Part shown: positions 1 through 64,000 of the stretch, piece after piece | How the letters are laid out: each line of letters opens with the position of its first letter | How positions within the stretch are numbered: position 1 is the first letter of the stretch | From: Trebouxia sp. TZW2008 | Lineage: Eukaryota > Chlorophyta > Trebouxiophyceae > Trebouxiales > Trebouxiaceae | Assembly: GCA_002118135.1 (NCBI GenBank) | Contig: BDIU01000325.1 | Coordinates: forward strand, 81,416 to 145,415 | DNA: 64,000 nucleotides | Direction of reading: 5' to 3' | Translations under genes and position numbers: made by a program | The notes under the pieces: model-generated | Told to the model about the DNA's origin: nothing | The model's input: only the letters and a program-made list of their open reading frames with translations | Database searches by the model: none

Positions 1-3000
1 ACATAGCAGCAAATACAGAGGCATGCACACAGTTTTGAAAAGGCTTGGTGTCTGACCTGACTCTGAGTCTTCGTCAAGGCTGAGTGCGCTTCTGAGTGTG
101 AGCCATGCTGCTTGCAGTAGTCTGCCAACAGCAGCATCCCGCAACCAGGGTGGCTCGACTCAAATCATCAGTAGACAGAGCAGGCATTAAGATGCCTCAG
201 AAAGAGCAGAATACAGGTGTCTGACCTGACTTTGGGCTTTCATCAAGGCAGAGTGTGCTTCTGAGTGCAGCCCATGCTGCTTGCAGTAGTCCGCCAGCAG
301 TAGCATGCTCCTGGTCGCCAGCCTCACACAGGCCTTGGGCCGCAAAGGATCCACAGAGTTGTAACGGTAGAAGGCCTCTCTGAAGAGGGATGTCACATCA
401 GACATGGGTGCACCTGTCATGAAGCTACTCAGCGCCAACATCTCCTGCAGCAAACAAGCACAAAGTGACCGCTGGGTTATGACTGAGCCGTATAAAACCT
501 TTCTCAATAGCTTGTGCAAATGCTGAATGAAGCAATGGTCGGGATTATGCAACAGATTGGGTGAGCGGGTGGGTGGATGGGAGGGTGCATGGGTACATGG
601 GACGCTGGGGTGGGAGCCTAGGTGGGCGCATGGGTGAGTGGGCCATGGAGGAAGACACGACAAAGCAAGCAAGGCGGCGATGACTGACTGAGCAATGTAA
701 CGCTGAGGGTATTGCACGTACCTGTACTCCTGCTAAGTGCTTCCAAGCCTTGTCAGTCTTGTAGTCACTAGCCAGCAGTTTCAGTGTTGACAGCGCAGTT
801 TCATAGTCCTGCATGACAAATGCCAGGTCCGCCAGCTGGCGCATCTGCCCCTCCACTGTGGCAGAACCATACTGGGATGAACCCCCTGGGCCCGCTTGAC
901 CACCCCTTGGGGTCTCAGATGCTGCGCTGCTTTTGCTGCGGAACAGAAATGTCTTCAGCTGATTGCGCAGTCCTCTTCGGCTGACTGTCACCTGCAGGTC
1001 ACTGCATTCATGTCGGAAACACGGCAGCGCTCCTTTCTGCTTTACAACAGCTTGTGTGCAATCGCTCAAGCAAAGATGGTGCTGGGTTGTCACATTGACA
1101 GCCACTGCATTGCACCATTGCATGCAGTTGTGAGAAGCAATATCACATGCTCCCGCTGTCAAGCAGCTTGTTGAGTGCTGTTTCAAACGCAACCTGCATC
1201 ATGTCAGGTGCATAAATCTGGCATTGATTGTTGTGTTCACACCTTTACCCAAAATCTCATTCAAAGTGCAACTCAGAGAACAATGACAATGAAGCTTGGC
1301 AACAGCTTACCTGATGATTGAGAGTCCTGACTCTGACCTCAAGATAGGGTAGCAGCACTCTGACCGCAAATTCCTCCAAGAATTTGGCTATGCTCTGCAT
1401 ATCTGTGGTGGACAGGCTGGCGCCATACCCCTGGGGGGGTATTGGGGGCCGCACCTGGGGTTCTCCTGCCAGCCAGATCAACTTGAAATCATTGTGCTAA
1501 ATATGTGCGGACATGACATGACTACAGCTGAGCTACATCTAAACTTTCCATTTTCAATGATGACAGTATAGAATGACACTAGTACTGTAATAGTATAACT
1601 GTGTGGAAACATATGCAGACGTTTTGAGGATGCTATCAAGATTTTGCGTGCATTTGCCTGAGTGTTATACTATGGTGAGCTGTCAGGGTGTAGACGGTAC
1701 CATCAAGGTGTGTGGAACATGCTGCATTGCAGATTGCAGCATCAACAGCATCTGATGTCATTGCTGCTGTGTTTGTGGACTACCACAGCTGCGTCTGGAG
1801 CTTTTTAAGTCCACAACCACAGCAGCAGTGACACTGCAACTGTCGGCACAAAGGCAGCATACCACACATCATGCAGGGACAGCGTCGAAGTTGCACTTGC
1901 AACGGGCCCATTGTGCCTGCCCTGACCCCTGATGCTGCTGCAGATTCACAATCAAGTCAAACAGCAGTGACTGCTCTGACCAGACTGTCTTTGCTGCATC
2001 TGTCAGCATACATGCAGAATGCCAGACAATATGCAGGGGCAGCATTGAAGGGGACTCTGTTCAAGGGACTGTTGTAATTGCCCCACCCCTAGTGTCACAA
2101 AGTTGCAACGAAGTCAAAATGCATTGATTGCACCAGATTTGCTGTCTTTGCTGCATCTGTCGGCACACAAGCAGAATGCCAGAAAGCCTGCAGGGGCAGC
2201 ATTAGAGGGGACTCTGTTCAAGGGGCTGTTATATTTGCATCGTCCCTGCTACGGTTACAGCTTTGCGAACAAGTCAGAAAGCAGGAAGCACACTGGCATG
2301 GCTGTCTTTGCTGCATCTGGCGGCACACAAGCAGAATGTTAGGCATCATGCAGGAGCAGCGTCAAAGCGGCTACTACATCTACCTGTCCCTGATGCATTC
2401 TACGCTTGGTAACCAACACAAACAGCAGTGACTGCGTCGGCAAGGGTGCACCAGCGACGCTGACACTTCTACATCTGTTAGCACACACAGAATGCCAGAT
2501 TTCATACAGAAACAGCATCAAAGCAGCAGTTCAAGGGACAGGTCGAGAGGGCATTTTCACAAAGGTAGGTTTAGAAGGGCATGCTGAAAGAAGCAGTTGT
2601 ACCTGCCCCACCCCCTGGCAAAGTGCCCCTGATGTGCGCCCTCCACAAGCCCTCATAGCCTATGCTGCTGTCCTTCTCTGCTTTGCCTGCCAGGTCCAGC
2701 ATGACAGAGTAAGAACGGCATGGATGATGCAGTGCAGGTGCTACGCAGCTGCATGTTGACAGAAAGGTGATGCAAACTGTAAACTCGAAGCCTGGCAAGA
2801 TGTGACTTGAGCCCCACTCCCACTGTGCACCTGTGCTGACATAGCGTACCAGTCATGAGGTTTTCGGCAAGGCAGCACCGCCAGGATTCATTGTGCCTGT
2901 ATGCAGCCTGAGGAGGTGGCAAGTGGTGGAGCCCAGGCTGGCCTGCAATGCTGTTTGTGCATGTGTTGGTGTGACAGCAAAGGCAAGCAACAGCTCAATG

Positions 3001-5076
3001 GTGTTCAAATGACTGTTAACGAGCATGTGAAGCCTGTGTTGACTCTAAGCAGAGTGGCAGGTGGAGGAGCCCAGGCTGGCCTGCAATGCGGTTTGTGCCG
3101 ATACAATGTTGAAGGAAAGGCAAAGAAAGATTGCACACACCCGTGTCGATTCTGAGGAGGTGGCAGGTGGTGGTCCCAGGCTGGGCTGCAATGCTGTTTG
3201 TACGCGTGCTAAGATCAAGCAAAAAGCAAACCACCGCTCAATGATGCATCAAAGAACTTTGTAGAACATGTCAGGTACCTGTGGTGATACCTGTATTGAT
3301 TCTGAGCAGGTGGCAGGTGGTGGAGCCCAAATTCGCTCGCCATGCCAGTTGTGCAGAGCTCAATGTCAGTGCCAAATGCAAAGCATACAACAGCTTAAGG
3401 ATGCTTGGAGGCTTGTCATTGAGCAAGTCACGTACCTGTGTTGATCCTGAGCAGGTGGCAGGTGGTGGAGCCCAGGCTGGATTGCAGCTGTCTCAACTTC
3501 TCCTCTGATCTGCCACCAAACACCATGTCAATGCGCTGAATTTCTCACTGTGCTGAACATGTAAATGCACTGAATATACAGATGCGCTTGACATGGGCAT
3601 AATAACATGAATTGACTAGAACTTTGCAACTCCCAACAGCATGTCAACACCGCAAAAATGGACAGAACAACAATGATTGGTCTTGTTTTTGCACGATCAA
3701 ACAGCATGTCAACGTATCAATACAATAAGCCCCAATTGGCCAACCCTTCTGAGACATTGGCAGCATCATTGTGCAGCAGCAGATTGCTGTTATGACATTG
3801 ATCATTCAAGACGTCTCTCACACTCACTTAGCAAACTCTTCTTGGGCATTTGCAGTATCACCACGCAGCAGAAAATTTGGATTGGTCTCAAAGTTGTTGC
3901 TATGACACTCACTTGGCAAAGGCTTCAGGAGCATTGGCCGCATCATCATGCAGTAGCAGGTAGTGCTTCAGAATCTGAGGTTCCATAAGGCCCTGCCGCA
4001 TGAGGGGCGGTATCGAGGCTGTTCTGAACAGCTCCCCATATGCTTTCACTGGGTCAGCCACGTGCGCATGCATCACCAGCAAGCCTGCAAGCACACTATG
4101 TGGTATGAGTTGCTGCTGTGCTGAACTTGAGTGTCAATGCAGGACTGACGAGAACCATAGCTTGTGTGAGATATCTCGTGTTGATGTTTATGCAATGTGC
4201 CGCCACGTGTTGGTAATGGGCAAGATAGGAATGTTGTGGCTTTGACTGGCAATCTGTCAGGAGCCAATGCATGCAGATTCTGAGTCACAGCTTTTGATTT
4301 TCGAGATTTGAAGCAAGCAGAGCAAAGACCTACATGCTACTGGATAGTCAAAGCTCTCATGATCTGAAAAGGCCAGCGTCCGTAGGTACTCCTGCTTATA
4401 CGCCTCAAACCAGGGTGTCTGCAAGTGCAGCTGACCTGCAATCAGAAGTTGTGTTTTTGTTGTCTGTCATACAGCAGCTAAATGCAGAAGCATCATGCAT
4501 GTATGCTTCTACCCATGTTTGTATGCATGTATGCATGCATGCTTCTGCGCATGCAAGCCTGCCGCACCTTGACTCACATCAAGTGGCACATTAGGAGCTG
4601 TATCTATTGGCACTTTTGTAGATGCTTCTGACAAAACCTTGTCCATGTATACATTTGCATCCTGTGTAGTGACACAACTATAGGTCAAGTGAGCTCTTCA
4701 ACAACGACATGACATTCGCCTGGGATTGCAATATTGTTGCAAACCTCATCTCTGGGTGCAAACATGTTCTGGCAGTGATAGAAGCGAAGCTTGAGCTCTT
4801 TAATGCGATATGATTGCTCTCCGACAGTTCTGACCGGGACTGCAGAGCGCGCATCGTCTGATGTAGGCAATATAAGCATCGCAACTTGCTCAGCTGCATT
4901 GTGTTGTTGATCGTGCGGCTGAGCATACCGCTCAGATGGTGAAAGAAACCATACGGACGCAACATGTCGACGACTGTCAGTCCATTGTGCTGCGCCACCG
5001 ATGCCTCAGCTTCAGCCGACGACACCACCATCACCACTGGCGTAAACGCCTCCATTATCCAGTTGCGGAAGTCCAT
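1..5076 (-). CDS. TRAPPC8: TRAPPC8/Trs85-like TRAPP complex subunit (N-terminal part, runs off the left edge)
   Basis: The product is a subunit of the TRAPP tethering complex, which acts in ER-Golgi traffic and autophagy. Eight exons join in phase: 5076-4929, 4839-4714, 4435-4334, 4084-3913, 3509-3436, 1465-1311, 991-722 and 444-226, giving 422 residues. The N-terminus has the family signature of a 'PVVMVVSSAEAEASVAQHNG' strand followed by VVDMLRPYG, then PVRTVGEQSYRIKELKLRFY. Further on come LAFSDHESFDYPVACLLV and MEPQILKHYLLLHDD, both close to plant and animal TRAPPC8. AWKHLAGVQEML and the RRGLRNQLKTFLFR stretch match the plant protein. The start is the ATG at 5076, just before the conserved strand. 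The 1.97-kb intron 3435-1466 holds two tandem arrays. The C-terminal half lies outside the window. The family call rests on recalled motifs, but several independent blocks agree and phases match at every junction. Confidence 0.9.
46..306 (-). repeat. Tandem duplication of the 3' part of a TRAPPC8 exon with its splice donor
   Basis: The real exon (444-226) ends KAQSQ followed by a GT donor. About 169 bp further downstream in the gene (46-139), the last 27 codons plus the donor recur as MLLLADYCKQHGSHSEAHSA and the following ALTKTQSQ. Most changes keep the reading frame. The copy is either a duplicated exon or an intronic relic; its acceptor side is not clear. Confidence 0.8.
1815..2620. repeat. 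Intronic tandem array, about five units of 155-170 bp
   Basis: The core 'ctttgctgcatctgtc' and the phrase 'aggggactctgttcaa' recur at roughly 1985, 2142 and 2305. Weaker copies lie near 1830 and 2460. The array lies in the TRAPPC8 intron 1466-3435. I could not match this unit to a TRAPPC8 exon, so unlike its neighbour it may be an ordinary minisatellite. Confidence 0.75.
2906..3509 (-). repeat. Five-copy array of a TRAPPC8 exon 3' end plus donor
   Basis: The coding copy is the exon 3509-3436 (SEEKLRQLQSSLGSTTCHLL, then RINT and the donor). Four diverged copies of the GSTTCHLLRI(D/N)T end follow inside the intron near 3305, 3158, 3050 and 2914, spaced 105-148 bp. The copies at 3305 and 3158 keep a GT donor, while those at 3050 and 2914 have GC at that place. 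Only the outermost copy gives the correct phase to the next exon at 1465. Confidence 0.85.
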
Positions 5077-5554
5077 TTCGACGTATAGTCCGGCAGAGTC
5101 AGACCGAAGAGATCAATGCCTTTGCCACATCTGAAGCTGTTCGAAAACGGTACAGCTCAGATTGCTGCTGAATCGATGCACTTTGCTTTTTGAGAGGGTG
5201 ATGGTGCCATCAAATTGGCTCAGCGCGATGTACTTTGCTGCATAGCGCAAATAGGTCAACGCAGTTGCAGAGAGAGCACCGATGAGCAAGAAGAAGCACA
5301 TAACAGGCAATTCACAAGTTGTACAGGCTGATTGCTTCTGTGCAGCAAAGCAACAAGTAACTTTCGAGGAATTTTGCAGGTGTTTGCCCTGTGCTGCACG
5401 CAAGGGAATCAGTTGCATGGCAGAGCTTTGATCTGGCAGAACCTGCTGTTCAGTATGCATGTACGATGTCATGTCATATGTAACAGCATGCAACTCGACA
5501 ATGAACAATGAATCTGTACCCAGTATATGTGTAACTAGGCGTGACGGTTACTGG

Positions 5555-5764
5555 ATGATTTTTGAGGCCAAGAAGGAGCTGCAGCAGTACCTCACTTGTA
5601 TCAACCCAATCTATGCAAAATACACAGAGAATCTGTGGGCGAACGAGGTCAACTCCATTTCTCGGCTGGGAGACGCTTCTTTGACAGTCTTGCAAGCATG
5701 TGGCGTTGAGAATCCAGTTCATGCTGGCAACATCATTGCTCAGTCACAGGCACCAGGCAAGTAG
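5555..5764 (+). CDS. Small SAM-like domain ORF, unassigned
   Basis: The 69-aa ORF begins MIFEAKKELQQYLTCINPIY and continues with TENLWANEVNSISRLGDAS and LTVLQACGVENPVHAGNII. The alternating LW..EV..I..LG.....L...GV..P.HA.NI pattern resembles a SAM-type helical bundle. It could equally be one exon of a larger gene: a possible acceptor lies at 5537-5538 (ag before GCGTGACGG, 16 bp upstream of the ATG), and a GTAG at the 3' end might be a donor. It lies between the divergent starts of TRAPPC8 and the 3' end of the HNH gene. I found no clear partner exons. An opposing Cys-rich ORF (5508-5113) with a hydrophobic stretch (VMCFFLLIGALSATALTYL) overlaps the TRAPPC8 upstream region and is not called. 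Confidence 0.35.
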   Translation: MIFEAKKELQQYLTCINPIYAKYTENLWANEVNSISRLGDASLTVLQACGVENPVHAGNIIAQSQAPGK

Positions 5765-6826: not shown

Positions 6827-8341
6827 TTAATGCATGGAGTTATACCAAATTCTCAGCTTCTCAGACAACTCCATGCCTTCAGTAAGATAGTCTTCAAAAT
6901 TCCATGAGGCTGGCTGCCACCCGTGTCGGATTGCGTACGTTCTAGCTTGCCTTGCCTGGAAATTGAGGACTCTCTTGTATGGGCGCGGAGGCCTTCCAGG
7001 GTCAAACTCCAATGCTCGGTTGTCAATATCTTGGAAAGTAAGGTTTTGTAGTAGGTGGGGTGGGCTCCTCCAATCTGTTCCCATCTTATCCCGACCAATG
7101 TCAACCAGCTTCTTCATCAAAATGCTTGGGTCCGTTATCTTGGCAATAAACTTGTCAGAGTTTTTGTCAAATGTAAAGCACAACCGTGAGGTGTCAAATG
7201 CCCACTCTATAGGCTTCCACACAGGCAACCCATTCTTGACATCATTGATGTTATCAAATCCAAGCAAGTGAACATACTCAAACCATTCCCACTTGAACAA
7301 GTGGGAGACAATGACCGTAGAGGATGGCAGGACAGCATTGGTGAGCAGACACCAACACTTGCTACCTTGCAAAGCTCCATAGCCGGATTTGACACTCCTG
7401 CTGAAAAGTTGTGCCCCAGGATTGGTTTTGCATGTCACCTTCCCCTCAGTGTACATAAATCTGTCCAGCGGTAGCGCACTGTGAACTTGTAACAGACTCT
7501 TGATCTCATTCAAAGCCAGCAGGACTTCATTAGAGGCACCCGCATAACACAATGTATTGCAGTTTGCTATGCTGAACAGTAAGCATTCACCTAAAAAGGG
7601 CTTTGCAAACACAGCTTCCCAAGGGGAATGCAGTGGTGGGGGGTGTGCGCTTGCTCCTGTGACACTACACATAAACCATGCTTGCTGACCATGCCACTAG
7701 GGCATAAGCGACACACATGGCTTTGCAATACTGACTTGCATGCATTCAGGCGTGAAGCATATGCATGCTGACAGTCGTTTGAGTTGGAAACAGCAAACTG
7801 GTACACAAGCTCAAAGGCCTAGCTGAGCAACGCTTGAAGAGGCAAACATCAAATTTTGTGCCATGCTAAAGCTGAGGTGCACGCATGCCCAAACATTGTC
7901 AGAAATTGTGTCAAGTAATCTCTCTAACGGATGCAGTGAAACAAGACTACACGGCTATGCATGTAATCAGACACGACTGCTGTGTAACACTGCTGTGTAA
8001 CACTGCCGTGTAAACCTTGCTGTGATGCCAGAATGTGATTTGGTCACATTATCGGGGAGGGCCCAGGGAGACAGCAACATACCTGCGTTCTGTGGACAAA
8101 CGATCTTGATGCGTAGTGGGTCTCCCTCAGGTCCTGGCAGATCATCAGGGTCGTCCCACCTGAGCCATAGCTGACCATCCCAAAAATACAGCTTCCCATT
8201 TTTGGGCACATCACTTATATTCATGACTTGTTGTCTTAGATCATTCTTTGACTGCCATGTGGCCCTGAAGCCGGGTGCTCCAGTACCCACATCAGCATCT
8301 GGTGCATTATCAACCCCATACTGCACCCTTCTTCGAGCCAT
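6827..8341 (-). CDS. HNH endonuclease domain protein (HNH_2 type), two exons
   Basis: Exons 8341-8083 and 7656-6827 join in phase 1 and give 362 aa. The N-terminal exon (from MARRRVQYGVDNAPDADVGT) has a Trp-rich strand pair (LYFWDGQLWLRWDDPDDLPG). The second exon contains the nuclease core. This is CWCLLTNAVLPSSTVIVSHL with the first catalytic-type His, then GFDNINDVKNGLPVWKPIE and WAFDTSRLCFTFD. That order (C.lT, vSHL, D.N...NGLP, E.aFD) is the HNH_2 layout. The second HNH position is Glu instead of His, a variant I recall from fungal and algal members. The tail is charged (FEDYLTEGMELSEKLRIWY). The start could also be the upstream ATG at 8389. The substrate is unknown. Such genes are often found as lineage-specific families, some linked to mobile DNA, but nothing here proves mobility. 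Confidence 0.72.
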
Positions 8342-10468: not shown

Positions 10469-10482
10469 TCGGTATATACCGA
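10469..10482. other. Perfect 14-bp palindrome in a gene-free stretch (10122-10973)
   Basis: TCGGTATATACCGA is fully self-complementary. It lies downstream of the kinase gene stop in about 850 bp of A/T-richer DNA where I see no gene. It could be a protein-binding site or chance. Confidence 0.4.
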
Positions 10483-13900: not shown

Positions 13901-16003
13901 CATCGCACGCACTCAGGAGCTGCAAATTTTGCACGTTCTGTCAGTAGATGCAGACATGCAAATCCTGAGCACATTACATAAGCGTAATGCCCAACACATC
14001 GTACTAAGTCAGCTTAGCAGCTCTCACAGCCATCATTGGTCAGCAGGTTGACAAGCAGATGTGACCAAAGCAGCAAACACAGCATTGTAGAGTGTGCAGC
14101 GCACAGCCACTACTGCTTGCAACAATAACAGGCTGGACACGTACACAGCATATGCATGTTTCTTGTGATGCATCAGTCAACACTGATTTTACCTCTTCCT
14201 CATGCAGGCTGCTGTTGGCTGCTTCATTACACACCCTTCCAGCACCTTCAAAATGCTGTAGGCCAGCCTGCACAGACACATGCAATGCTTCAGAGGCAGA
14301 AGCAGCAGCAGCAGAAGCAAGACAGACATTCAAATATACATGGCTGTGAATGCTTGGGTGAGCAGGCACTGCGATTCATGTCAAGGACCAACCTCACCTG
14401 ACAGCACAGCATCAGCACAGTGGATCCAGTACGCAGCACAGATGCTCACCCATGTAAAGTCATCTCAAGGCAGGTCAGTGCTTCAGGAGACTTACAGTCT
14501 CACACATAAACATGTGCTAGTGATAATCCTGCAAATGATGACAGATACTCACCAAAGAAGGACCTTGCTGGAAGCTCTGCAGAAAGGCCGCCATGTTGAA
14601 ACCGCCAAAGCTTGGAGCGTCGCTGCTGGCATGCTCTGCACCCTCCGCTGCATCCTCAGCAGCCTGCAAGCAACAGAACTAAGTCAGCATGAAATGCCTG
14701 GCCTGTTGTTTGGATGCATGTTTCAGTGCCGGTTCCTTAGTGATGATTCGAACACACTCGACTGCACACAAACTTGCAACTTTGCATCTGTCATCATCGA
14801 GTGCCGTGGCAGCTGCTGTGCATCGACAAGACAAGCTTGCTGGCTATCATTGAGTTGTTGCAGATTCAGAAGTATAGGTGTGTAGATGTTTGACAAAGGG
14901 CGTGCTGGATTTGGGTTTGACAAGCTGCCATCACATGCACATCATCATCCCTGGATGATGCTCAGGTGACTACAACAAACAAGAAAGAGGTCAACATCAA
15001 CTCAGAAAACCTATGTTTGTCTGTCATACAGACTCATCTGTTCCCAGACAGGATCACAGTCTCCTTACCTGCTCATCATTGCTGCTCCAGTCATCAGTGG
15101 TCTGCACTTGCATTGCTGCTGCTGTGTTTTCCTCTGACAAGTCTGCAGACCCTGCACCCTCATGCAACTGTCCCTCATGAACTGCGGTTGCCTCATCCCA
15201 GCCATCTGCCACTGTTGCATCCTCATGCAACTCTCCCTCCATTGAGGTTGCCTCCATCCTTCTTCCTTCTATTGGGCTTCCCTCCATCATGCCTCCCTCT
15301 GCTGGGAGACCCTCATACCGGCCATCTGCCACTGCTGTACTCCCACTCAACTCTCCTTCCACTGAGGTTGCCTCCATCATTACTCCCTCTAGTGCTTGGT
15401 GGTGCTCACTCAAAACCTGCAGAATTTATTTATTGTATCAGCAGATGCAGATGTGCAGAGCCCAACATAATTATGCAGAAACAAGCATGATGCTGAACGC
15501 AGTGTGTGGGGTCAATCAAGCAGCGATTGAGGCACTTAGTCGTCAAGAGGGAAACAAGTTTATACGAGAAACCCGGCACTAGACAGCATGCAGAGGACAA
15601 GCACCCTTGCTTGTAACAACTATACGCTGGGTATGCACACAACATTTGCATGTGTGCTGTTATGGGTCAACACCTCTTGCACACGCACGTCATCGGTCTC
15701 TGCGTTGTTGCTTGCCCTTCCGGCACCCTCAAAATGCTGTAGGCCAGCCTGCACAAGCACATGCAATGCTTCAGAGGCAAGCAGCAGCAGCAGCAGCAAG
15801 ACAGACAGTCCACCACACACGGCTTAGGATGCTTCTCTTCAGCAGGCACTGCTGTTACCAAAATTCAACCTGACCTAGTTTTATAGCAGTAGCACAGTGC
15901 AGCCAGTAAGCAGCACAGATGCTCATCTCTGGCTGCTTACTGGAGTCATTCGAAGATTGTTCAGGGCTTCTTTGGACACTTACAACCTCACAAGTTGACA
16001 GCA

Positions 16004-16035
<32 letters not shown>

Positions 16036-19000
16036 ATGATGATGTTGATGATGATGGCGACAATGACAATGATGGTGCTAATGGTGACTCAGGCAATGCT
16101 GTTCCTACGCGGTCATCTGGTGAGGATGATGATGATGACAATGATGATGGTAATGATGATGGTGATGATGACAAAGATGGTGATGATCACAATGCTGTTG
16201 GAGGTGATGAACATGCAAATGATGACAGAAGCTCACCAAAGAAGGACCTGACTGGATGCTTTGCAGAAAGGCCGCCAGATCGAAAGTACCAAAGCTTGCA
16301 GCTCCGCTGCTGGCATGCTCTGTACTCTCCGCTGTCTCTTCATTGGCCTGCAAGCAATGCAATCCAGTCAGCATCAAGCAGTTGGCGATCCCTCTGCATG
16401 GTTCAGCGCTTTTACCTGAGTAGTACTTCCAAGGACGCACGCAACTTGACGTGCACTCACGACAGTGCATCTGTCATGCTGAAATGCTCTGATAACTGCT
16501 GTGCATCAACAAGGCTTTGCAAAACTGTTCCCTATATTCCAAATCAGGGCAGATCAAAAGGCCACTACCTGCCCATCATTGCCTGCCCAGTCAGCAGCTG
16601 ACTCAAGCGGGGCCTCAATGTTCTGCGCTTGTAGCGCTGCCGCTGCCTCTCCCTCTACTGGGAGTCCCTCATCACAGCCATCTGCCACTGTTCGATCCTC
16701 ATGCAACTCTCCCACCACTGGGGTTGCCTCCATCATTCTTCCCTCCACTGGGCTTCCCTCCATCAGTCCCTCCGCTGGGCTTCCCTCATCCAAGCCGTCT
16801 GCCACTGTCGTACCCTCATGCAACTCTCCCTCCACTGAGGTTGCCTCCATCCTTCCTCCCTCTACTGGGGCTGCTACCATCCCTATTGCCTCATCTGGGT
16901 CTTCCGCAATCATCCTTTCCTCCACTGAGGTGCCCTTGTCTGACCCTTCTGCTACATTCTCACGATCCACTACATTTGCCACCTGCAAGCACAAATTGAT
17001 CATGCCAGGTCCTGAGTGTAATTGCTTGGCTGGATAGAGCAACTAAGTCAGAACAGAAGGTAGATTGCGACCACAACAAATTGGCACATGATGGTCGCAG
17101 TCATTCCAGCATCTACAGGGTTGAGTCAGCCCAAAGGCATCACACCTGATAATTAACAGCAGCAGCAGCATCAGCATCATAATAATGTCCAGCAGCATTG
17201 CTTTCTGGAAGGTGCGCTGGGTGTGTCACAAGCCCCAAGTCATTATCATTCTGGTGCAGCAAGTCAGACGTCATGGCATCACAGCAACGACAATGACAAG
17301 GACATGATGCACGTTCTGGCACAGGTTCTAGGTGTGTTATGTGCGGCACAACTTTTGTCTTGCCATGCCTCACAGCAAGGCAAGCCAGGTTGTTGCATGT
17401 GCAGTTTGTGCATGCAAGCTGGACACAAGAGGAAGGTAAGCTACCTGGCTTGTAGAGGGCAGAAGCTCTTGGGCGCCCTGGTCACGCTCTGCTCTGAAGG
17501 CTGCAATAAGGTTGTCAGGGTCAGCCTGCTTCTTGCCAGCTGCATTCCCGCCATTCTGCACGTCACAAAAGGCTCTCATCTTCAGATTCAGGTCACAAAG
17601 TGATCTCTACTCCTGACTTTGAGGCAGGGCTGTTGCTCAGCAGCACTGCTAGGTTGGAATTGGCGGCAAAGCAAGTTCGCAACAGTACACAGAAAAGAAC
17701 TTGGCTGTCACTTTTGGTGGCAAAGCGAGGCCACTGCAGCAAAAACAAGAACACTCAGTGGCAGGTTCAACAGCAAGGCCAGCTTACAACAGCATGCATA
17801 AGCATACCTGGCTGCCACGCTGGGTGGCTGTGAGATTGTACAGGTGCTGATGGAAGGCAGCATTGTCTGCTGCATTTCCTGCTGGTCCCCTGCCAGAGAA
17901 TGTCAGCTTCCTGCCGGCTGCCTCCTGCTCCCTGTTGAATACTGCTGCTCGCCTGGCAGGGAGTGCCAGCTTCTTGCCAGCTGCCTCCTGCCTGATGTTC
18001 AGTGCAGGCTGTTCCACGCTCGTCACTGAGCTAGATGCGCCGTGCTTGCTATCAACAGCTTGGTCACCATCCTGTATTGCACAAAGGCCTGAATGACTTT
18101 GCATGTGACTGTCAGCAGTACTGTGACTGCTCAAGGGCCCTTGTCTTGCGATTGCTGACAAGCTGTGTGCAGACGCAGCAGATTGCATGCACTTCAAGCA
18201 GGCAAAGCAAGCTGGACTTGGACGTTGTCATGACATGTGCTGGTGAATGATGATGACACTGACAATGACAATGCTACACACCCCTCTGGACCCCAGAAAG
18301 CCTGCATTAAAAGGCAATCATCTGAGGCATACATGCAATAGGCTCTGGACAGCACCCTGGGTTGTCCCAACTAGCCGCACTCAAGTCAGCTTCACATGTG
18401 CACACACCAGTTGCAAGGTGGCTTCTGCTCAGGGGAACAGCAAAGATTGTGCATACTGGTTCGGTCTGCCTTCCTTGTATATGCCTGCGCTGATGTGCCT
18501 TAAGCACAAGCTTTCCTGACGACCCCTCATTCATGATGGCAAAACTAGCATACAGCACACCACATTGCCATATGCATGCATGGTTGAAAATCATACCTGG
18601 TCGGCTGAGCTTCCTGCCTGTTCATGTGCTGGCACCTGCAACTCCTTGACCTCCTTGTTTCCCTTGTGCTTCTTCTTCACAGCTATGCTAAGCTGCTTCC
18701 TCTCAGAGTCAGAGAAATGACCCTGCACAAACATGACAGACAAGCATTACATAGAGACCTGGCAAGTCACAAATGCATGCCATTCAGCATTATCTTAGTG
18801 TGGCATAGCATAGGCTTAGGCTTTCATATCAACATCAACATGATGATCTCCAACACCAGAAATGTCAATGGTACCAGTAGCAACAATCAGAAACCAATAG
18901 TAATAGCTGTTGCACATTCCAGCACAACACTGGGTGTACATGTACCCAGACACATCTGACAAGTGTGTACCTTGTGAGGCAGTAGCTAAAGGTGCCATTT

Positions 19001-45222: not shown

Positions 45223-47869
45223 ATGTTCAAAACGTGCAGCTGGTTTGGCAAGCTTGCATGGGCCGTGCCTGCCAAGGCAAAGCTCCTCAACTTACGCAAG
45301 GTGAGATGCCCTCTCACAGTGCTTTGTTGGTGGCAGTGGGGCTGTGCAAGTCGCTGTGTCGCTCAAACTGTACCATGCTGTGTCAGGAGGTGCCTTGCTC
45401 TGCCTGTTGGTCCTCAGCGGCATGTACGAAAGGTGCAGTGCTCAGCTGCAGCAGAGCAGAATGCACAGCCATCAGGTCTTTTCAGATACTCAACAGAGCG
45501 GAGTAAGAAACCGCCGGTCAAGCCAGGCTTCCTTAACTACATGTAAGCAGGGTGCAAGTTGACTATGTTTGCTGCCTCCCTGTAAATCCAGGTAAGTAAT
45601 TGTCAGCCTCTGAATTTTGCTTTTATAGGGACAAGACTGAGGCTGATGCATGGAATAGGAAAATGTTTAAAGAGGTCACAGGGGTCAATATGCCTATCAA
45701 AGGCCAGCGCAAAGCATCTCCGCTGGGCTTTTTGCTGTGGCCAATTGTATGGGTCAAGTGGAAAATACCCTTGCCATTGCGCTATTTATGGTGGCTGGTC
45801 TGGTCAAGGGTTTTGGAACTTGGGCAATTTTTACACAAGCAGGTTGTCTTGCAAGGTAAGCCCTGAGCTGACTCAGATGCTTCAGTAGGCGTCAGCTCAC
45901 AGTAGCAGCTTGGGTGCAAACAAGTCAGTGTAGCGGGTTGATAGCCTAGGGAAGGTGCTCGTTGTCGCTTGGTGCACAATCCCTTTTTTCACAAGGTTTT
46001 GGGCGCCTGTGTCTGTCGCTCGGCGTAGTGCAAAGGACCAAAGAAAGATGAGTCGCAGGTTCAGCTGATATTGCAGTTTCTGCCAACATGCCTCATGTCT
46101 TTAATGTTATTCAAGACGCATACTAGACATGCTCAGCAGGCCCAGCAAGGTACATACTGGAGCAGTTGAATGTCTCACATCGCTTGGGTCTTGTGCTCAT
46201 CTGAACTATGTGTACTGAATGTGGAAGGTGGAGAGATCCTTGTTCAAAGATTTCTGCCAAGTGTCTCTGGGTTTATCCTTGGCAGCTCTTTCTTGCTCAT
46301 GTCATGCTGATTACGCTGGTTGCAAATGACTTGCACATCTGCCTACTTGGGATGTCTGTCCCACACTTTCGTGGCAGCTGCTTCCTAATTGTGGAACACA
46401 GACTTGCGCCACACACAACTAGCACATGTGGTTGAAGGTGAAACACATATGATCATCGTTATTCTAGTGAAACACATTGCTGTCTGCAGGTGCCAAGTTG
46501 GATGTTGAACTTATGCGTAGAAAACAGCCAGGCGCACCTGCGACTTTTTCTCGCCAAGTGGCTCTATTCCGCTTCCATAGGACTTTGAGCTGGTGGGGCT
46601 CCTTCATGTACAGGCTGCGGCTGTATAGGGTACAGTTCTCTTGGCTGATGTGATGTGACATAAGCAGTACAGTGCATTACATTTCATTACATTACAATGC
46701 ATCACATGCGTGGCGTGGCATGGCATTGCATTGCATTACACCGCTTTACATAACAATACATGACTCATATGGCATGGCATTGCATTACACTGCACTGCGT
46801 TATATTGATTTCCTGAAACTGACTTCATGAAGCCTTTTTATGCAATCTGCCATGCTGTGTCCTTGAGATTGTGGACTTGTGTGTTGAACGTTTGAAGCCT
46901 GCACTGCTGCTGCTTTTGGTAATCAGGCTGCTGTTGTATGGGGTACGCTTCTCCTGGCTCATGTACTGTGACTTGCTGCAATTTGCCATGCTGTGCATTC
47001 GAGATTGTGGTTTTGCGCATTAAGCATCTAAAGCCTACACTGCTGCTGCACTGAATGACCAGCCTGCGGCTGCATGGGGTACGCTTCTCCTGGCTCATGT
47101 ACTGTGACTTGATGCACTACAATGCATCACATTGTGCTGCATTGCATAACATGACATCAGACTGCATTTCTTAATGTCCAAAAGCTGAATGAACCAAGTA
47201 TTTGATGCAATCTGCCATGCCTTGTCCTTGAGGTTGTCCATTTGCACTTTGAGCATCTAAAGCCTGCTTTGCTGCTGCTTTTGATGACCAGGCTGCGGCT
47301 GTATAGGATACACTTTCCCTGGCTTATGTGAGATAACTTGATGCAATCTGCCATGCTGTGCATTGGAGATTGTGGTTTTGCGCATCAAGCATCTAAAGCC
47401 CACACTGCTGCTGCTTTTGATAAACAGACTGCGGTTGTATAGGGTCCATTTCTCCTGGCTCAGGCGATATGATTTCATGCAATCTGCCATGTGTATCAGG
47501 ACTTCACCTCCCTCCATGCTCATTGAAACGGTTTAGGATAACACAGGAGCAAACTGGTTGGAGAAATTTGAGTGCTCCAATACGTACCTAGCTGGGCTTG
47601 CTGAGCCTGTCTAGCATGCGTTTAAAATGAATCTGCCATACTGTGCTCGGGAGTTTGTGGATTTGCGCCTTGAGCATCCAAAACCTGTAATGCCGCTGCC
47701 TCTAACAACACGCTTAAGTGGGCTCAGCATATCTGACAGCAGCATGCGCCTGCTCAGCCTGTTGCTGATGTCAAAGCTTGCTGCAGGGGCGCCCACAGGA
47801 GGTGGCAGAAGCATATGCAAAAGTTGCGGCCGCAGCCAAAGCAAAACAAGTGGCGGCAAGTGGCGCTGA
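45223..47869 (+). CDS. Probable plastid-targeted membrane protein, unknown family (3' end unresolved)
   Basis: Exons 45223-45542, 45629-45855 and 46490-46649 join in phase (2, 1, 2). The N-terminus (MFKTCSWFGKLAWAVPAKAK) is basic and poor in acidic residues. It runs to RKVQCSAAAEQ, which resembles a transit-peptide cleavage region. The mature part has KKPPVKPGFLNYM, then DKTEADAWNRKMFKEVTGVN. Next is an aromatic, probably membrane-embedded segment (PLGFLLWPIVWVKWKIPLPL, RYLWWLVWSRVLELGQ), then GAKLDVELMRRKQPGAPATF and FHRTLSWWGSFMYRLRLYRV. After the donor at 46649 the DNA is an array of related exon-like units. The last one, about 47624-47869, is open to a stop (MNLPYCAREFVDLRLEHPKP), but I cannot prove it is the terminal exon. 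The first intron might be retained inside exon 1, since that whole stretch is open. Confidence 0.5.
46590..47660 (+). repeat. Exon-like tandem array, five to six units of about 130 bp
   Basis: Each unit contains a version of the third exon's 3' end plus donor: RLRLYRVQFSWLM, RLLLYGVRFSWLM, RLRLYRIHFPWLM. Each also has an upstream LP(C)..LE(I/V)V part beginning 'atctgccatgctgtg'. Units lie near 46600, 46850, 46975, 47205, 47340 and 47625. Several stay open and keep GT after CTCAT or CTTAT. Confidence 0.8.
46675..46800. repeat. CATTACA/TGCAT low-complexity block
   Basis: Imperfect short repeats (cattacatttcattacatta, catggcattgcattgcatta) lie between two exon-like units. Confidence 0.8.
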
Positions 47870-52053: not shown

Positions 52054-55000
52054 TTACAACGCTTGGCTGAATTCTGTGTGAGTGACCATCTTGTCAATCT
52101 TCCGCTGATTCCACCTCTCAAGAAAGAATCTGACGCAGAACATAAATGTCGCCTGCTTCATCTGGCCAACACTGCCCTGAATACGCTTCAAAGCACTGTT
52201 GCACTGCTCAGCAATCTGGCTATTCAACACCTGCCACTCAGGATACAGTGACAAATTGTAGCTCCTAGCGCATGATACATGATTGAACCAGTGAAACCTG
52301 TCTGCCAGAAACATGGTGTCCTTGAAATGTTCAGGTTGCCGATTTAGACAGTAGTCCTGCAAAGCGCATGCAAAGTCGTACACAACAACCTTTGGAGCGA
52401 TTTCAAAGTATTTGAACAGCAACGAAAATGCTTCATCCCTGCCCTCAGCATCAGGAATGATGTAGAAACAGTAGCAAACACCATGCTTGCAAAACCATGT
52501 AAAAATACCACCAGTGCGCCGACTTCCACGTGAACCGCTGACAAATGCTTGACGGCACCCTTCCCATGAGTCTGCATTCCTATCCATGGCATAACGCTGT
52601 CTCACACGAACTTGCTTGACCCCAGAGCACACACCAGTCCGCAAACACTCATTTGACACACTAGATGGAGCATCTTCAATGCTGTCATCTGCAGCTATAA
52701 GAGGCCCACCAATCCCACATGCCATGCTGTTGTCAGCCAAGCATTTCAAAAACTTGGCATAGTTTGCATGCATAGCTTCCCCTGGACGTCTACAGCCACG
52801 CATGTGATCAAGAGCCAAGCAAAACTCGTAGAACAGTGGGGCATCAAGCTGTAATGTATCTATGAGTTCAGACCCAAATCCGTGTCCTATATCAGGGTCA
52901 ACATCAACAGCCAAAAACTGCAGCATGCTTTGCGCAACTGAATGTGGGAGGTACGACAAAGTTGGGCTGTCAGATGCCAATGTGACCAGCATCTTGGCCA
53001 GGATGCGCCTATTAGACCCAGATTGAGCATCACACATCTGACCAATATCATCAATCAAAGCAGACATGTCGAACCTCTGTACTAATGCCAAGAGCTCAGG
53101 ATGCTCCTGCTCATACACAAAGGGCTGCTCATCAGTTCTACGACCAGATGCTGTTTTGCCGTCACCTCTCACATGAGTAGCAAAGCGGGACAGCAGTTTG
53201 CGTGATGGGAGACTCCCTATAAAGCAGCGCTGCGCTCTGTCGTGAGGCCTCTCATGCCTGTGACCATCAGAAGGACCAACTTGCTTGATGGGCACACCAG
53301 TATAGTATTTGGCAAGGATACTCTCAGATGTTGCATCCCCTATCAGAACATCAGGGCAACTGCCACACTCAGGACATGTGAAGGCATACTGCAGATCCAG
53401 CTTGATCGCCCAGGCTTGAAACACCTCCCTAAAAGTCTTGTTTGTGCAAAACTTGAAGCATGAACCGTCAGGAAGTGGCGGCACAAGATGCTGGTAACTG
53501 TCTTTCTGAATCTGAACATAACCATTCAAGGTTTGACCATTAAGCACAAGCTCATTGGCATAGCCATACAGCATGCGAAGCGAGACACAACTTGAATCAG
53601 AGTAGTGAAACAAGCCGTCATCATACCCATCATAGACAATGGTGCAATCAGGGTTGTGCGCTGCACAACGTAACTCATACAAGGGACGTGTGCAGCCACC
53701 ACATGGATCTGGATATAAGACTACACAAGCAGGATTGACTTGTATTGACTGGTATGCATGCCCACAAGAACAGAGCTGCCTGTCATTGGCAGGTTCCAGC
53801 CGCTCAGGAATGCCCCTTCTGCTCCATGCATGGATAGCCTGTGTTGTGGCTGCATCAGGAGGATATGGGTATGACTGATGAGGAGACTTGCAATGCCAAA
53901 TCTTTGACCAGTCTTGTTCAGTCTCCTCCTCTTGATCAGCTTCAAGACCATCAGCTCCGACCTGCAGTGCAATGTGCACATGCTGAGACACTGACCCATG
54001 GGATGACACAAGGCCAGTCTGCTTGTTGTGCATCAGAGAAAGGCATATCCACAAGATACATGCTGCAAAGCATACTAGGGAATGTGGAACAAACTGAAAA
54101 CCTGCGCAGGATGACAAGCGCATGCAAATGCTAAATAACATAACCAATCTCACCTGCACCACATCTTCTTCATCTGACAAGCTGTTTGGCTCTGCATCTC
54201 CATGTGCATCAATATACTGTCTCACAGCTTGACAATGCTCACACTGGGTTCTGCAACTTGAGTGGCTACAACGCAGCGTGCTATCAACTCGTGAGGGTGT
54301 CACCAAGCACTGACCAACCCAGTAAGCGACAGGCGTAATGTTCTGATGTGCCGCACAAACTGGAATTACACCATGCTCTGGCAGCTGCACTGGGACTGAC
54401 GGACGAGCCGATACATGCGCGGTGTGAATAAATAACATTTCTGATTTGCATCTGTCCTGAAGTTCTCACAGCTGCAAACCAGACTGCCTCCTCGCCGAGA
54501 AACCTGCATCAACACCAGAACATATGAGCACATGGTAGGGAAGCTCCTAATACTGGTGAGACTGGGCAAACCAAGACTGCGTGCCCACCATGACTGGGCG
54601 TTGAGGAAGCAGTCTTGGCATGTGCACATCCACATCCGGCAGAGCCCAGCCATCATCTGGTAGAGGGGTCTGATATGCAAAAGGACTGATCAGCAATGCA
54701 TTGCGGAACCACTTAAGAGTGCCGGGCAATTCTCTTACAACAGCAGTCAGTTTGCGCTTTTTTGGTCTATTTGTGTCTGCAGCAGAATGCGGTTGCTCTG
54801 AAGGCTGCCTCCTTTGACGCTGCGTGCTGGCTGGCATGCTGCTGCTGCTGGCCTCGAATGACTGCGCTGGCACATCAAGCAACATCCAGTCACAAAGCTG
54901 CTGCCAGTACTCATTTGAGAACATGTGCTGCACTTTTTCTGTAGAGTATCTCCATGTGCTGATGTCATTGGAGCTGGGGCCTGTATGCATGTACACAAAA

Positions 55001-55422
55001 AATGCTCGCTGAGGATGAGTTGCTGCTATTGCTTTGGCTAGATATTGTAGGTTTGGCATGCGCCCTTCCCACAATTTCCGCCGTTTTACTGGCACAGTCT
55101 GCAGCTCTCCTTCCACTTCATCCACAGCTCTGAAGTCAGACGAAGAGTGTGAGTGAAGCTGTTGCTGCAAGAAGCCTAAAAAGTCATCACTGCTCTTCAG
55201 CTCTTGCAGTGAGTCGCTGACATAGTAACGCAAGATGTCTGCGACGTCTGTATATGCGACCAGGGCGTGACCCCCGAGCCTGATGCTGAGCTCTGCCACC
55301 TTTTTGATAAGCTTCTGACCTGCTGCGTCGAAGTTGCTCGGCATCTGAACTGCAGCCACGTTTGTCGCAGCCATCGGCCTGCGTGGAAGGCGGTCATCAG
55401 GACCAGCAATTCTTTGCAGCAT
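52054..55422 (-). CDS. KDZ transposase with N-terminal SWIM-like zinc motif
   Basis: The catalytic part is one open frame of 794 codons (54438-52054). Near its end it has KVVVYDFACALQDYCLNRQP, FLADRFHWFNHVSCARSYNL and NSQIAEQCNSALKRIQG, then FFLERWNQRKI. These are the D, D/H and E blocks of the RNase-H-like KDZ core (about residues 685-780). Cys-rich knuckles come earlier (LRCSHSSCRTQCEHC, CPDPCGGC-like, FTCPECGSCP). Upstream, an exon near 54507-54445 reads VSRRGGSLVCSCENFR, a CxC SWIM-type start. The ORF 55422-54547 (PKKRKLTAVVRELPGTLKWF, with a nuclear-signal-like patch) is probably the first exon, joining in phase 0. The junction at about 54450 is not resolved. The long open frame suggests a young or intact copy. 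Some animal KDZ copies are annotated as 'HMG domain-containing protein 3'. Confidence 0.8.
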
Positions 55423-59000: not shown

Positions 59001-61787
59001 GCAAGGCCTTTGAGCCCAACTAGCATGCGTTATTATGTATGTGTGTAGACAAGGTAACCCTGTTCATCCCAGGACGACCTGACCTGACTTGAGTCAAGCT
59101 GCTGGCAAGGCTGTCTCTTGAAAGTCAGACAATATGATCTGCTTGCACTAGACAAGGCAGCTTGATCTGAATTGTCGTAGCTTGTCTGTATGTACGTGTC
59201 GATCAAAGCTGCATCACTCTCATGCTCATGTATGCACAAGAAGCAAACCGCACATGCTCAGGAGGTGTCATCTGACTGTTGCTGCAGACTTTCTCCTGTG
59301 CCACCATTGGCAAAACACAGATTGGGCAAAACAGCCATCAGCATAACATGTGCATGTGACATGACTCATGCACATGTGACATGACTCATGCATATGCTGC
59401 TGCAGGTTTACTTGTGTGCCAGGAGTTGGCAAAACCCTGAGTGGGCGAAATCAACCAAACCCTTTGGCCATCAGTGCAACATTTGGCGGCGGCCAGTACC
59501 TTCAGAGCTCCATCAAGACGGCTCAGTCACCTTCACAGACGGACAGCACGTGGAGCATGTGGACACTGTCATGTACTGCACTGGCTACCTGTACACATTC
59601 CCATTCCTGGACAACGTTGTCTCAACAAATGACAACAGGTAATTTTACACAGCCAATTTGTTTATTTGTGTTCGACTTTCATCAGCTTGGGCACAATGTA
59701 TGACTGCGTTTCCATCAATGCTGGTTCTGGGTGACTGCCATGCGTTTTTGTAGCGCTACAATAGCTGTGCAGCAACCAGTCAACCCTGCACTGCAGTCAA
59801 TGTTGGGTTGACACATGGCTCCTGATTCTTTGAGCACAAGATCTATGATCTAACTGTCTTCAGCCCAGCTGAAGCCTGTCTTCAACCCAGCTGAAGCAAG
59901 GGATGAAATGTTTGCTTGAAGGCAGTCAGGGCGTCCACACAAACCATCTTAACACTGTGCTTGAACAATCTCCAAATGCTTTGCCAACTGCTTTGGTCCC
60001 AAAATCACATTTCAGTATTCGATGAATCAATTGAGACCACTAAGCGCAATCAGATCACTGATGCAGGGTGTCTCCTGTGTACCGCCACATCTTTCCAATC
60101 TCCACTGCTCCCACATTGTCCATCATTGGACTGCCCTGGAAGGTCGTACCTTTCCCAGAGTTCGAGGTGCAAGCTAAGTGGATTGCCAGAGTGCTATCCA
60201 ACAGAGTCAGTCTGCCTAGCACAGCAGCAATGCAGGCTGAAGTGGAGCAGTTCTATGAGGATTTGGAGCGTGAAGGCGTTCCTGCCAGGTGAGAACTGCT
60301 GCATGAATCTGCTGATCATACAATGATGCAACAATGGCTTGAGATGGTTGACAAGTAGCAATGGGAAACTGTTTCTTGCTAGGTGAGCTTTGTGTGAAGC
60401 TCATGTGCATTCATTCTGCAAGGAGTCAAAGCGTGAAGGCATCCCTGCTAGCTGAGTCCTGTTGTGTCACCCTGATGCATCCATTTGTTACAACACAGTG
60501 ATGCGCTGGCGTTGTACTTGCCAAATAAAGCTGAACTGCAGCAGACCAGGACTACAAAGATTTGGAGCCTGATGCTGTCCTTTCTAGGTGAGAGGAACTA
60601 CATCTGCAGCTGAAGTCCAGCAGTTTGTGAGAATCTGGAGCAGGTCTCTATTCTATTATGCTCTGCCGCAGGTACACACCTTTGCTTGGGGATAAACAAT
60701 GGGGGTACACGGACTGAATATGCAAGCAGTGTGGCCCAGATGCCGCCCAGACGTTGCCCAGACTGAGCAGTGGCGGCATACACATATAAACCCATGCATC
60801 AGTACAAGAGAGGAACCCCTGACAAACACAATACACATTTGTTGCAGGTATACACATCTGCTTGGAAACAAGCAATGGGAGTACAAGGACTGGATAAGCG
60901 AGCAATGTGGTCCTGATGTAGCCAAGACTGAACCATGGAGGCGCCAAATGTATGAGGCTACTGGGCAGAACAAGAGAGAATTCCCTGATAGGTATGCCAA
61001 GTCAACAACACTCACAGCTACCTCATGCCCAACAGCAGTTGTGATGCTATGCTATGCTTTTGGCCATAACATGAGAGAGTTCTCTGACTGTTATTCTTTT
61101 AAAACCAAAGCAAATCAGCTGCTCTGAGGCAGCACGATCTTTGACGGAAGTTGACTTGCACTATGTCTGTATCTATACCAAGACGGCAAGCCCTGTTTTC
61201 AATCCAAGCCTTTGCTCAGCATGGAGGGGCACAGATGCATAGCCTCGTTCCGTTGTCATGTGTTGTGGCCAGTGCGTTCTGACTTGCATGATAGCTCTGT
61301 ACCCACAGATGCACTGGAGCTATGATGCAAGTGAAAGCAGACTGGCGGCAGTGCATGCCGACAGCTCTATTCTTGTGGCTGCGTAAATTAAGTTTGCCAT
61401 TCCTGACAGCACATCAGGTGACAGATGTTGTATTGCATTGTTACGGTCAGTGCTTACCGTTGCATGGTGAGGGGACTTCTGGTTGCTCATTCAGTGCAAT
61501 GCAAGCGTTCTCCTGGAGCAGTGTACACTGCTACGTCTTGTTCAATACGAGCAATGCCTTGCTGTCTTTGCATGCTGCCTTCTCTGGCACTGTAGCACGA
61601 CTAAGCACATGACAGTCCGCTTGCACATTCAATCTCATGCAACACAGACAAGCTTGCAGTCATGTCATCTGACTGAGCAAGCATGGATGATGCTTGCAGC
61701 TACAGAGACGTGTGGCAAGATGACCATTTGGTAGAGGTAGCCAAGCAAGCTGTGAAGACCCAGTCAGCCAGCTTGAGAGCGGGCTGA
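56071..61787 (+). CDS. Flavin-containing monooxygenase (plant FMO GS-OX-like), nine exons, complete
   Basis: It oxygenates soft nucleophiles (S or N) using FAD, NADPH and O2. Exons 56071-56118, 56758-56902, 57255-57406, 57996-58730, 59406-59638, 60067-60288, 60848-60991 and 61700-61787 sum to 1767 nt (588 aa) with matching phases; an extra exon is not needed. Motifs in order are AVIGAGAAGLVAARELVQEG (FAD site), VHSSMYAKLRTNLPREVMAY and DPRRFPSHEE (plant FMO marks). Next come FPGQVMHSHNY (FxGxxxHxxxY signature), VVLVGASASGEDI (NADPH site) and MYCTGYLYTFPF (FATGY position). After that are NKQWEYKDWISEQCG and a YRDVWQDDHL end. A His/Asn/Ser-rich insert of about 130 residues interrupts the middle of the protein (58090-58520). 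The 16-codon first exon (MLCARPGRFIAISLQA) is the least certain part; the rest is firm. That gives eight listed exons; the word nine allows for a possible alternative first exon. Confidence 0.88.
60240..60991 (+). repeat. Exon-end plus donor copies, then an exon copy, in an FMO intron
   Basis: The real exon end is 'gaggatttggagcgtgaagg' to CCTGCCAG and GTGAG at 60288. Diverged copies of that end lie at about 60422-60460, 60553-60597 and 60605-60645. A decayed copy of the next exon's start with its acceptor (gccgcag, then TACACACCTTTGCTTGGGG, and a stop) lies at 60670-60755, ahead of the real exon 60848-60991. So both sides of one intron have been duplicated. Confidence 0.8.
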
Positions 61788-63519: not shown

Positions 63520-64000
63520 GATAACACTGGTGGTCGTGTAGCAGACGCGATCCTGCTACCACCAACAACCTTGTACGATCTGTGGTTGGCCGCGAAGCAG
63601 ATTCTGGCTAAAGACAAGCTGTACTCCGGGGCCACTCAGATAGACGAGCGCGAGCAGTTCGCTTCAGCCTTCTGTTCAGTGTTCGACGAGCTCATCAGCG
63701 CTGAGGCTAAACGCGCACCTGACGCACCGGCCTACTCGGTTGACATGGCCACCTTCATGGTCATGCTGAAAGCGCAGCTCGACGAGCATAACCAGCTCAA
63801 CGACTACGGTGATCCGGATGACGCAGCTGAACCTATGGAACACGATGGTCAGGATGTCGGTGACCAGGCACCACCGGCTTCTCAACCAAACCTGGTTTCC
63901 TCAGCTGGACCATCTGCTTCTGTTGCTGCTGCTGAATCAACACCTGCCGCTGGTACCAATCCCACAGGCAATGTGTCTGAAACACTTGCAGCAACAAACC
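63520..64000 (+). CDS. Ala/Ser-rich ORF running off the right edge, possible second mobile-element gene
   Basis: The frame is open from 63520 to the window end with no Met until SVDMATFMVMLKAQ, so it is probably an exon after an acceptor (gtgtag or cag near 63540). It reads LYDLWLAAKQILAKDKLYSG, FCSVFDELISAEAKRAPDAP, then an acidic stretch and an Ala/Ser/Pro/Thr-rich tail (SAGPSASVAAAESTPAAGTN). Its CpG-rich codon use differs from host exons nearby. The low-complexity tail resembles the style, not the sequence, of the companion gene at 49128-51622. No family is recognised. Confidence 0.5.

Follow-up and report, generated by a model that had tools for sequence, protein, structure and literature searches.

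Copies of exon edges in the introns of a Trebouxia genome point to a probable chronic process of short tandem duplication

In a stretch of 64,000 nucleotides from contig BDIU01000325.1 of Trebouxia sp. TZW2008 (hereafter, the window), several introns appear to contain repeated pieces of the exons that flank them. A sequence-only reading had listed nine such arrays in unrelated genes, and described each as a fragment of an exon repeated, with its own donor or acceptor, inside the adjoining intron. This raises the question of whether these arrays are real, whether they lie at exon edges more often than expected by chance, and what kind of process leaves them there.

We have found that all nine listed arrays exist, eight by self-alignment and the ninth by a shuffle test. 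Self-alignment of the window (GC 49.7%) recovered the eight at or near the positions first read from the letters. The ninth, on the donor side of an FMO exon (60240-60650), was weaker than the threshold used for calling arrays. Its two copies each showed a Smith-Waterman score of 35 (exon 60231-60269 with 60605-60641, and exon 60267-60301 with 60430-60464) versus a maximum of 30 among 1000 shuffles, none of which reached either score. The coding copy had been placed at the exon end in every case. For six of the nine arrays (four in the FNDC3-like gene and two in FMO), this was confirmed by exon ends set by Trebouxia orthologs, and for the other three (two in the TRAPPC8-like gene and one in the gene at 46490-47660), it is indicated by gene models and sequence reading.

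The TRAPPC8-like gene, which lies on the minus strand and extends beyond the window edge, showed two donor-side arrays, both placed by gene model and sequence reading. In the array at 46-306, a coding copy at about 216-306, within the predicted exon 215-444, is accompanied by an intronic copy at 47-137 (85% identity, step 169). In the array at 2893-3509, which self-alignment recovered as 2893-3491, a coding copy at about 3436-3509 is accompanied by four decayed copies at lower coordinates, with steps of 107-150. A probable donor-side array of the predicted exon 3913-4084 (3733-3959, minus strand) was absent from the first list. On the plus strand, the predicted exon 46490-46629 has a donor-side array at 46603-47699 (step 136; gene model and sequence reading), the end of which also touches a dispersed repeat.

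The FNDC3-like gene, on the minus strand, was aligned exon by exon with its ortholog from Trebouxia C0005 (P0121), which has a single copy at the sites that are repeated in the window. The exon at 37540-37680, located by tblastn with residues 728-776 of this ortholog, has its 5' part and acceptor duplicated, and the resulting acceptor-side array at 37604-38198 (step 113) holds about four copies, one of them with a stop. Further acceptor-side copies carry exon 38929-39061 up to 39249 (array 39033-39249; three copies, step 73, 93%) and exon 41238-41468 up to 42017 (array 41356-42017; step 174), and the donor-side copies of exon 39642-39929 reach down to 39318 (array 39318-39658; step 96, 85%), self-alignment having given 39483-39658 for this array. 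In the array at 41356-42017, where P0121 again has one copy, the identities are 93%, 84% and about 70%, and here the view that copies decay with distance is borne out. The view that copies carry stops also holds for some of them: the 174-base unit reads HL*FATGTLIFVNAIL*EGRG and an FMO copy at 60670-60753 reads TD*I. One array at 38765-38906 (minus strand, step 47) lies entirely within an intron of this gene, and it is the sole interior array of the verified genes. At the protein level, the window FNDC3-like sequence finds matches along its full length, of 69% in C0005 and 62% in C0010, and these two orthologs align with each other through the array sites without extra copies.

In the FMO gene, on the plus strand, we found an acceptor-side pair at exon 59406-59638 (59277-59450), which the first list lacked, the donor end of exon 60067-60288 with the two decayed intronic copies of the shuffle test (60231-60641), and an acceptor-side array at 60668-60928 (step 176), in which the stop-bearing segment 60670-60753 is a copy of exon 60846-60991. 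The window FMO protein showed an 83% match in C0005 over half of the query. Two transcript-like contigs of 2.6 kb each, which encode a 612- or 608-residue protein and are presumably transcripts considering their length, go directly from VPAR to YTH over the copy-bearing intron, as does C0005. For VPS41 at another locus (L008), a query without the copies matches a Trebouxia-like contig protein (P0241) over 100% of its length at 87%, and in the intron between 7641 and 5880 the end of the upstream exon is matched three times, after which the start of the downstream exon is matched four times. A fourth gene, ARP3 (L002), was identified by the similarity of its protein to ARP3 structures. Where orthologs were compared, the protein runs on across one intron and the copies lie within that intron; intron gains may have occurred elsewhere. 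Separately, the annotated proteins P0003 (Trebouxia C0005) and P0008 (C0004) both differ from their transcript-like orthologs, the former lacking a stretch and the latter running into non-homologous sequence, which hints at gene-model errors in the published sets.

The minus strand of the window also contains tandem arrays within coding sequence, at 21757-22310 within a single predicted coiled-coil exon (step 132, or 44 codons) and at 25369-25750 likewise within a single predicted exon (step 126, or 42 codons); the former is the same kind of duplication, retained in frame. At 14193-16347 (minus strand), two predicted exons of a coiled-coil gene are repeated as a pair with a spacing of about 1.5-1.7 kb, which is a whole-exon duplication, and in the coiled-coil gene at 19140-24463 (minus strand) the predicted exons alternate between 91-98 and 119-140 bp, an alternation that suggests a possible repeated duplication of an exon pair. 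A large open frame at 52054-55422 (minus strand) appears by eye to resemble a KDZ-type transposase-associated protein. In addition, a MITE-like dispersed element is present at 34787-34945, at about 7383-7559 of the ARP3 locus and elsewhere, with at least 40 scored copies (1334 first-look candidates genome-wide), the best other copy being 92% alike. The ARP3 copy has the inverted ends CAGTGACTTCTCTTTGTAAG / CTTACAAAGAGAAGTCACTG and is located just upstream of an acceptor.

To the window, which forms the right end of its contig, we added twenty stretches from other contigs of the assembly (68.5 Mb, 527 contigs). Published Trebouxia genomes of 63-74 Mb (PMC11523091) and of 69.1 Mb with 49.68% GC (PMC12712428) are in line with this size and with the GC of the window. 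Three of these (L003, L007 and L016; 22,195 bp), with foreign base composition, were excluded from all counts, and the sample consists of 18 sequences of 232,092 bp, or 0.34% of the genome. The 18 retained sequences are depleted in CpG (0.31-0.47) with CA/TG in excess (1.59-1.71), the pattern expected from cytosine methylation. The excluded stretches, from contigs C7, C18 and C41 of the same assembly, showed observed/expected values of 0.25-0.57 for CA/TG, 0.28-0.62 for the GC dinucleotide and about 1 for CpG. L016 has a 2119-residue open frame with no Pfam match, L003 and L007 carry tRNAs, and the three may originate from an organelle, a contaminant or something virus-like.

An array was defined as a local direct repeat with an offset of 30-1000 bp at a fixed E-value, shorter steps being partly outside the range of the detector. 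The sample contained 114 arrays, versus none in dinucleotide-preserving shuffles, and they cover 21.0% of the sampled bases, with an array roughly every 2 kb. When the smallest offset of each array was taken, the median was 127 (quartiles 99-169), with 105 of the 114 within 60-210 bp, and the best identity per array showed a median of 83% (10th-90th percentile, 75-91%). Local alignments were direct in 347 cases and inverted in 14. Considering that the best alignment spans less than 0.9 of the step in 69 of 114, not every array is a clean tandem. Tandem Repeats Finder, run per array, called only 37 of the 114, with a median of 2.6 copies and 82% matches, and accordingly tables based on this program would miss most arrays; in excerpts of the Trebouxia A48 genome paper, simple repeats are listed as 1.82% (PMC12712428). 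Domain searches of the whole genome, in which only the best candidates were scored, were inspected by eye for same-strand neighbours less than 200 bp apart sharing at least 25 profile positions. Such overlapping pairs were seen in at least three places for kinases (134 matches), at least four for kinesins (146) and at least one for ABC membrane domains (32), and in none by eye among the 22 actin matches listed; they lie on eight different contigs, and four have a stop in one copy. Over the sampled contigs, the claim that such arrays recur in unrelated genes was upheld.

To locate the arrays relative to exons, we wrote a small gene finder, which was trained on the sample and then retrained in a four-fold cross-validation with the array bases masked; outside the four verified genes (FNDC3-like, FMO, VPS41 and ARP3), the gene models are ab initio. 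On 24 homology-checked exons of the window, the gene finder overlapped 23, and 24 of its 28 predictions were true, with 25 of 48 ends exact against reference ends from tblastn that are themselves approximate. Two of the four false predictions were array copies. In the cross-validated count, a junction array starts inside an exon and includes its splice site, and the exon continues for at least 30 bp past the array. The first, uncorrected models gave 76 junction arrays out of 114, versus 46.0 ± 5.2 by random placement, and the cross-validated models gave 66 versus 30.4 ± 4.7, a count that none of 500 permutations reached. When a coding threshold was applied outside the array, the numbers were 55 versus 23.8 (score 3), 46 versus 18.5 (score 5), 29 versus 11.8 (score 8) and 13 versus 6.7 (score 12). 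No permutation out of 500 reached the observed count at the first three scores, and 9 did at score 12, the strictest, where the excess is weaker. The 17 loci outside the window showed 58 of 95 versus 26.7 ± 4.2, or 25.5 ± 4.4 by joint rotation (0/500 each), and the window alone showed a modest excess (8 of 19 versus 3.9, reached by 12 of 500 permutations and 28 of 500 by rotation; at coding threshold 5, 4 versus 2.1, 74/500). A three-round cross-validation, in which 123 exons were retained, gave 24 of 114 versus 12.8 (ratio 1.88; 1 of 1000 permutations). The expectation that tandem units overlap splice junctions more often than under random placement was thus not refuted on this 0.34% of the genome.

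Donor and acceptor sides were represented by 31 and 36 cases in the cross-validated models. Retained exons flank 212 introns; junctions were hit 45 times, and interior arrays were present in 27 introns, a proportion of 1.67 to 1. The available positions predict 0.44 to 1 for the present introns or 0.67 to 1 for introns 200 bp shorter, which corresponds to an enrichment of 2.5-3.8-fold. In the first gene models, array coverage peaks at the junctions (0.29-0.31) and is 0.15-0.22 at 200-350 bp into the introns. Arrays enclosing a whole exon numbered 54 versus 51.2 expected for all predicted exons, and 13 versus 21.2 for exons scoring at least 15. In the four verified genes, of which VPS41 was chosen for its array-rich locus and not for its array positions, 38 introns with a mean of 506 bp have 30% of their bases in arrays, and 16 arrays are at junctions with one in the interior. 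Against the junction share (0.53) of the most permissive uniform run of the simulation given below, this yields p = 3e-4, a rough value in that the simulation counted introns with interior arrays and not arrays; without the ARP3 array at 7349-7592, a 28-bp repeat around the dispersed element that perhaps involves no tandem duplication, p is about 6e-4 by hand. On the other hand, a literal anchoring of the units to splice sites, as first proposed, was not borne out. The excess is flat, at 2.2-2.7-fold in each class of exon overlap from 12 to 150 bp, with a deficit (0.37) above 150 bp, and no constant spacing between the end of the unit and the junction was found in the sampled arrays. This flat profile indicates that the junction has no set place within the unit, and a general bias toward exons would account for the profile no less well than a bias toward junctions.

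We consider that the arrays probably reflect chronic short tandem duplication of DNA, by which introns are lengthened with neutral debris of exon edges. Head-to-tail duplications of 60-210 bp would be frequent in the genome, and a unit spanning an exon-intron boundary would provide the gene with a spare splice site. If splicing stays with the site joined to the intact exon, the protein would be unchanged and the new copy would become intron, where it would decay neutrally and may be duplicated again. In this way, introns would lengthen with the debris of their own flanking exons. Considering that donor and acceptor sides are about equal, that the units contain intron sequence and that their orientation is direct, duplication of DNA is a likelier route than copying via spliced RNA. 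The units may be produced by slippage during replication or nick repair, and their size range of 60-210 bp is reminiscent of lagging-strand fragments or of paired nicks. Splicing in this strain presumably ignores the copies, and the introns would, on balance, grow by such duplication.

The excess at exon edges could in principle arise from plain neutral duplication, in which units land anywhere, purely exonic ones are lost and junction ones stay visible longer through their conserved exon copy. The flat position of the junction within the unit and the neutral decay of the copies agree with this, and short exons and introns make junction units commonly expected. In our simulation, genes underwent tandem duplication at random; duplications of whole exons and most of the exonic ones were removed, exons evolved slowly and introns neutrally, and small indels as well as deletions that balanced length took place. 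The same detector was used, with parameters that were chosen, not fitted. However, all 14 uniform runs with 430-bp introns, in six of which intron turnover was raised and exons were slower, remained below the observed values although selection and exon conservation were included: the placement ratio was 1.09-1.61 against 2.17 observed (1.94-2.49 over five coding thresholds), and the intron-based enrichment was 1.28-2.36, near which the lowest observed value of 2.5 lies if the introns before duplication were 200 bp shorter. Other uniform runs showed ratios of 1.01-1.35, with a coverage of 0.09-0.19 at the junction that climbed to 0.28-0.46 inside the intron, the reverse of the observed trend. 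Since the 16:1 proportion in the verified genes also stands against it, we regard duplication free of any bias as rather unlikely to account for the whole pattern. When intron-only duplication was made five times rarer (four runs), the ratio was 1.52-1.95 and the enrichment 2.31-3.81, which reached the observed values only partly; at four times rarer, the ratio was 1.54-1.64 (one run), and at ten times rarer, 1.84-1.91 with a flat to falling profile (one run). Because the simulated excess (1.0-1.6-fold) is smaller than the observed one (1.9-2.5), some real exon-edge preference is likely, and since the parameters were chosen, its extent beyond neutrality is taken as probably about two-fold and not as a measured rate. 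Considering that the copies look neutral, this excess lies more likely in making than in keeping, and we infer that duplication starts more often in or beside exons, purely exonic cases being lost to selection. More tentatively, it is possible that a mutational process in Trebouxia duplicates 60-210 bp units preferentially (several-fold) in or beside exons, for example one tied to transcription, exon chromatin or lagging-strand repair, and that most intron growth in the genus is self-copying of exon edges. In that case, intron length would be a running record of targeted duplication.

The copies might instead be functional, as decoy or alternative splice sites or as exons of some transcripts, and 29 of 37 best copies are without an in-frame stop. 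The other eight contain one, however. Among the 37 exon-copy pairs, the two copies agree at 85.0% of the exon part versus 78.1% of the intron part, and the differences by codon position (0.130, 0.088 and 0.196) would roughly fit one constrained and one free copy. A first count restricted to the best copy found AG retained in 21 of 22, but this apparent preservation disappeared when all 68 copies were counted, with AG retained in 33 of 43 (control 0.711) and GT in 13 of 25 (control 0.578). Neither preservation nor purging was detectable for splice sites in the copies. Since these sites decay at the background rate, there is no sign in these copies of the retained decoys, alternative exons or new introns that the sequence-only reading had envisaged, and the C0005 and C0010 ortholog proteins as well as the transcript-like contigs are free of them; we consider a functional role very unlikely. 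Insertion of a transposon or introner with long target-site duplications, in place of tandem duplication, would suit the ARP3 array, where the 28-bp direct repeat surrounds the element with inverted ends, and 9 of 114 arrays overlap dispersed hits. Yet short, widely spaced repeats make up only 6 of the 114 arrays, and only 30 cross-locus matches at E 1e-8 exist among the 18 sequences, and such insertion is highly improbable as the general source. An artefact of assembly or gene models might be suspected from the draft state of the assembly and the ab initio models, but it can hardly be the cause, as the best identities are mostly 75-91%, unlike assembly echoes, the exon ends of four genes come from homologs, and arrays were masked in training.

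Chronic duplication, as the preferred reading, concerns the length of introns. The median was 766 bp for introns with a junction array (n = 37), 355 bp for those with none (n = 151) and 1150 bp for those with interior arrays only (n = 24), and intron length and array content go together for junction and interior arrays alike. Because the interior-only introns are the longest, length alone is no proof of growth by junction copies. The copies are also a trap for gene prediction, several of them having been called exons by our gene finder.

Several known systems resemble these arrays in part. In a minisatellite, near-identical units of roughly 10-100 bases follow one another in tandem; the arrays are likewise head-to-tail repeats of tens to hundreds of bases, but they consist of few, diverged copies from a local exon edge. 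Internal gene duplication, reportedly treated by Gao and Lynch in 2009 (as cited in PMC4974935 and PMC3443670), likewise takes place within genes, whereas here the units are short (60-210 bp) and dense, with a tested excess at exon edges. The copies that were read are partial exons, some with stops, and whole-exon arrays are not in excess, so that tandem exon duplication or mutually exclusive exons do not describe them. A further likeness is to intron gain by tandem duplication, as in the potato RdRp gene, where duplication across an intron-exon boundary created a new intron (PMC4974935), and excerpts of a review count 188 such gains in seven taxa, none an alga (PMC3443670). On the one hand, as far as these sources describe it, direct duplication crosses the intron-exon boundary and carries the parental splice signals in both; on the other hand, the cases checked here show no extra intron or exon, the copies sit in existing introns, and the event recurs gene after gene, not once. 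Introner elements, in the excerpts of PMC9860276, are likewise bulk makers of intron sequence, but they copy themselves into many genes, whereas the arrays are local copies of their own gene; no dispersed family of similar introns was found among the 18 sequences, the few cross-locus matches being touched by 9 of 114 arrays. In green algae, excerpts on the Asterochloris genome give nine introns per gene, without the word "tandem" in that text (PMC6652019), and in excerpts of two Trebouxia genome papers the words "tandem" and "exon" are absent and "intron" occurs once, in a reference title (PMC12712428, PMC11523091). Our literature search, with most subscription papers outside its scope, found no description of such duplication as a genome habit in green algae. 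The source sequences of introns are seldom identified, according to the excerpted text of PMC4974935. The process itself is known, and what is new is its intensity and its likely exon-edge bias. As such traces are frequent here, can be dated from their decay and are linked to known exons, they could serve to measure directly the rates at which duplications cross junctions, splice sites are chosen and introns lengthen.
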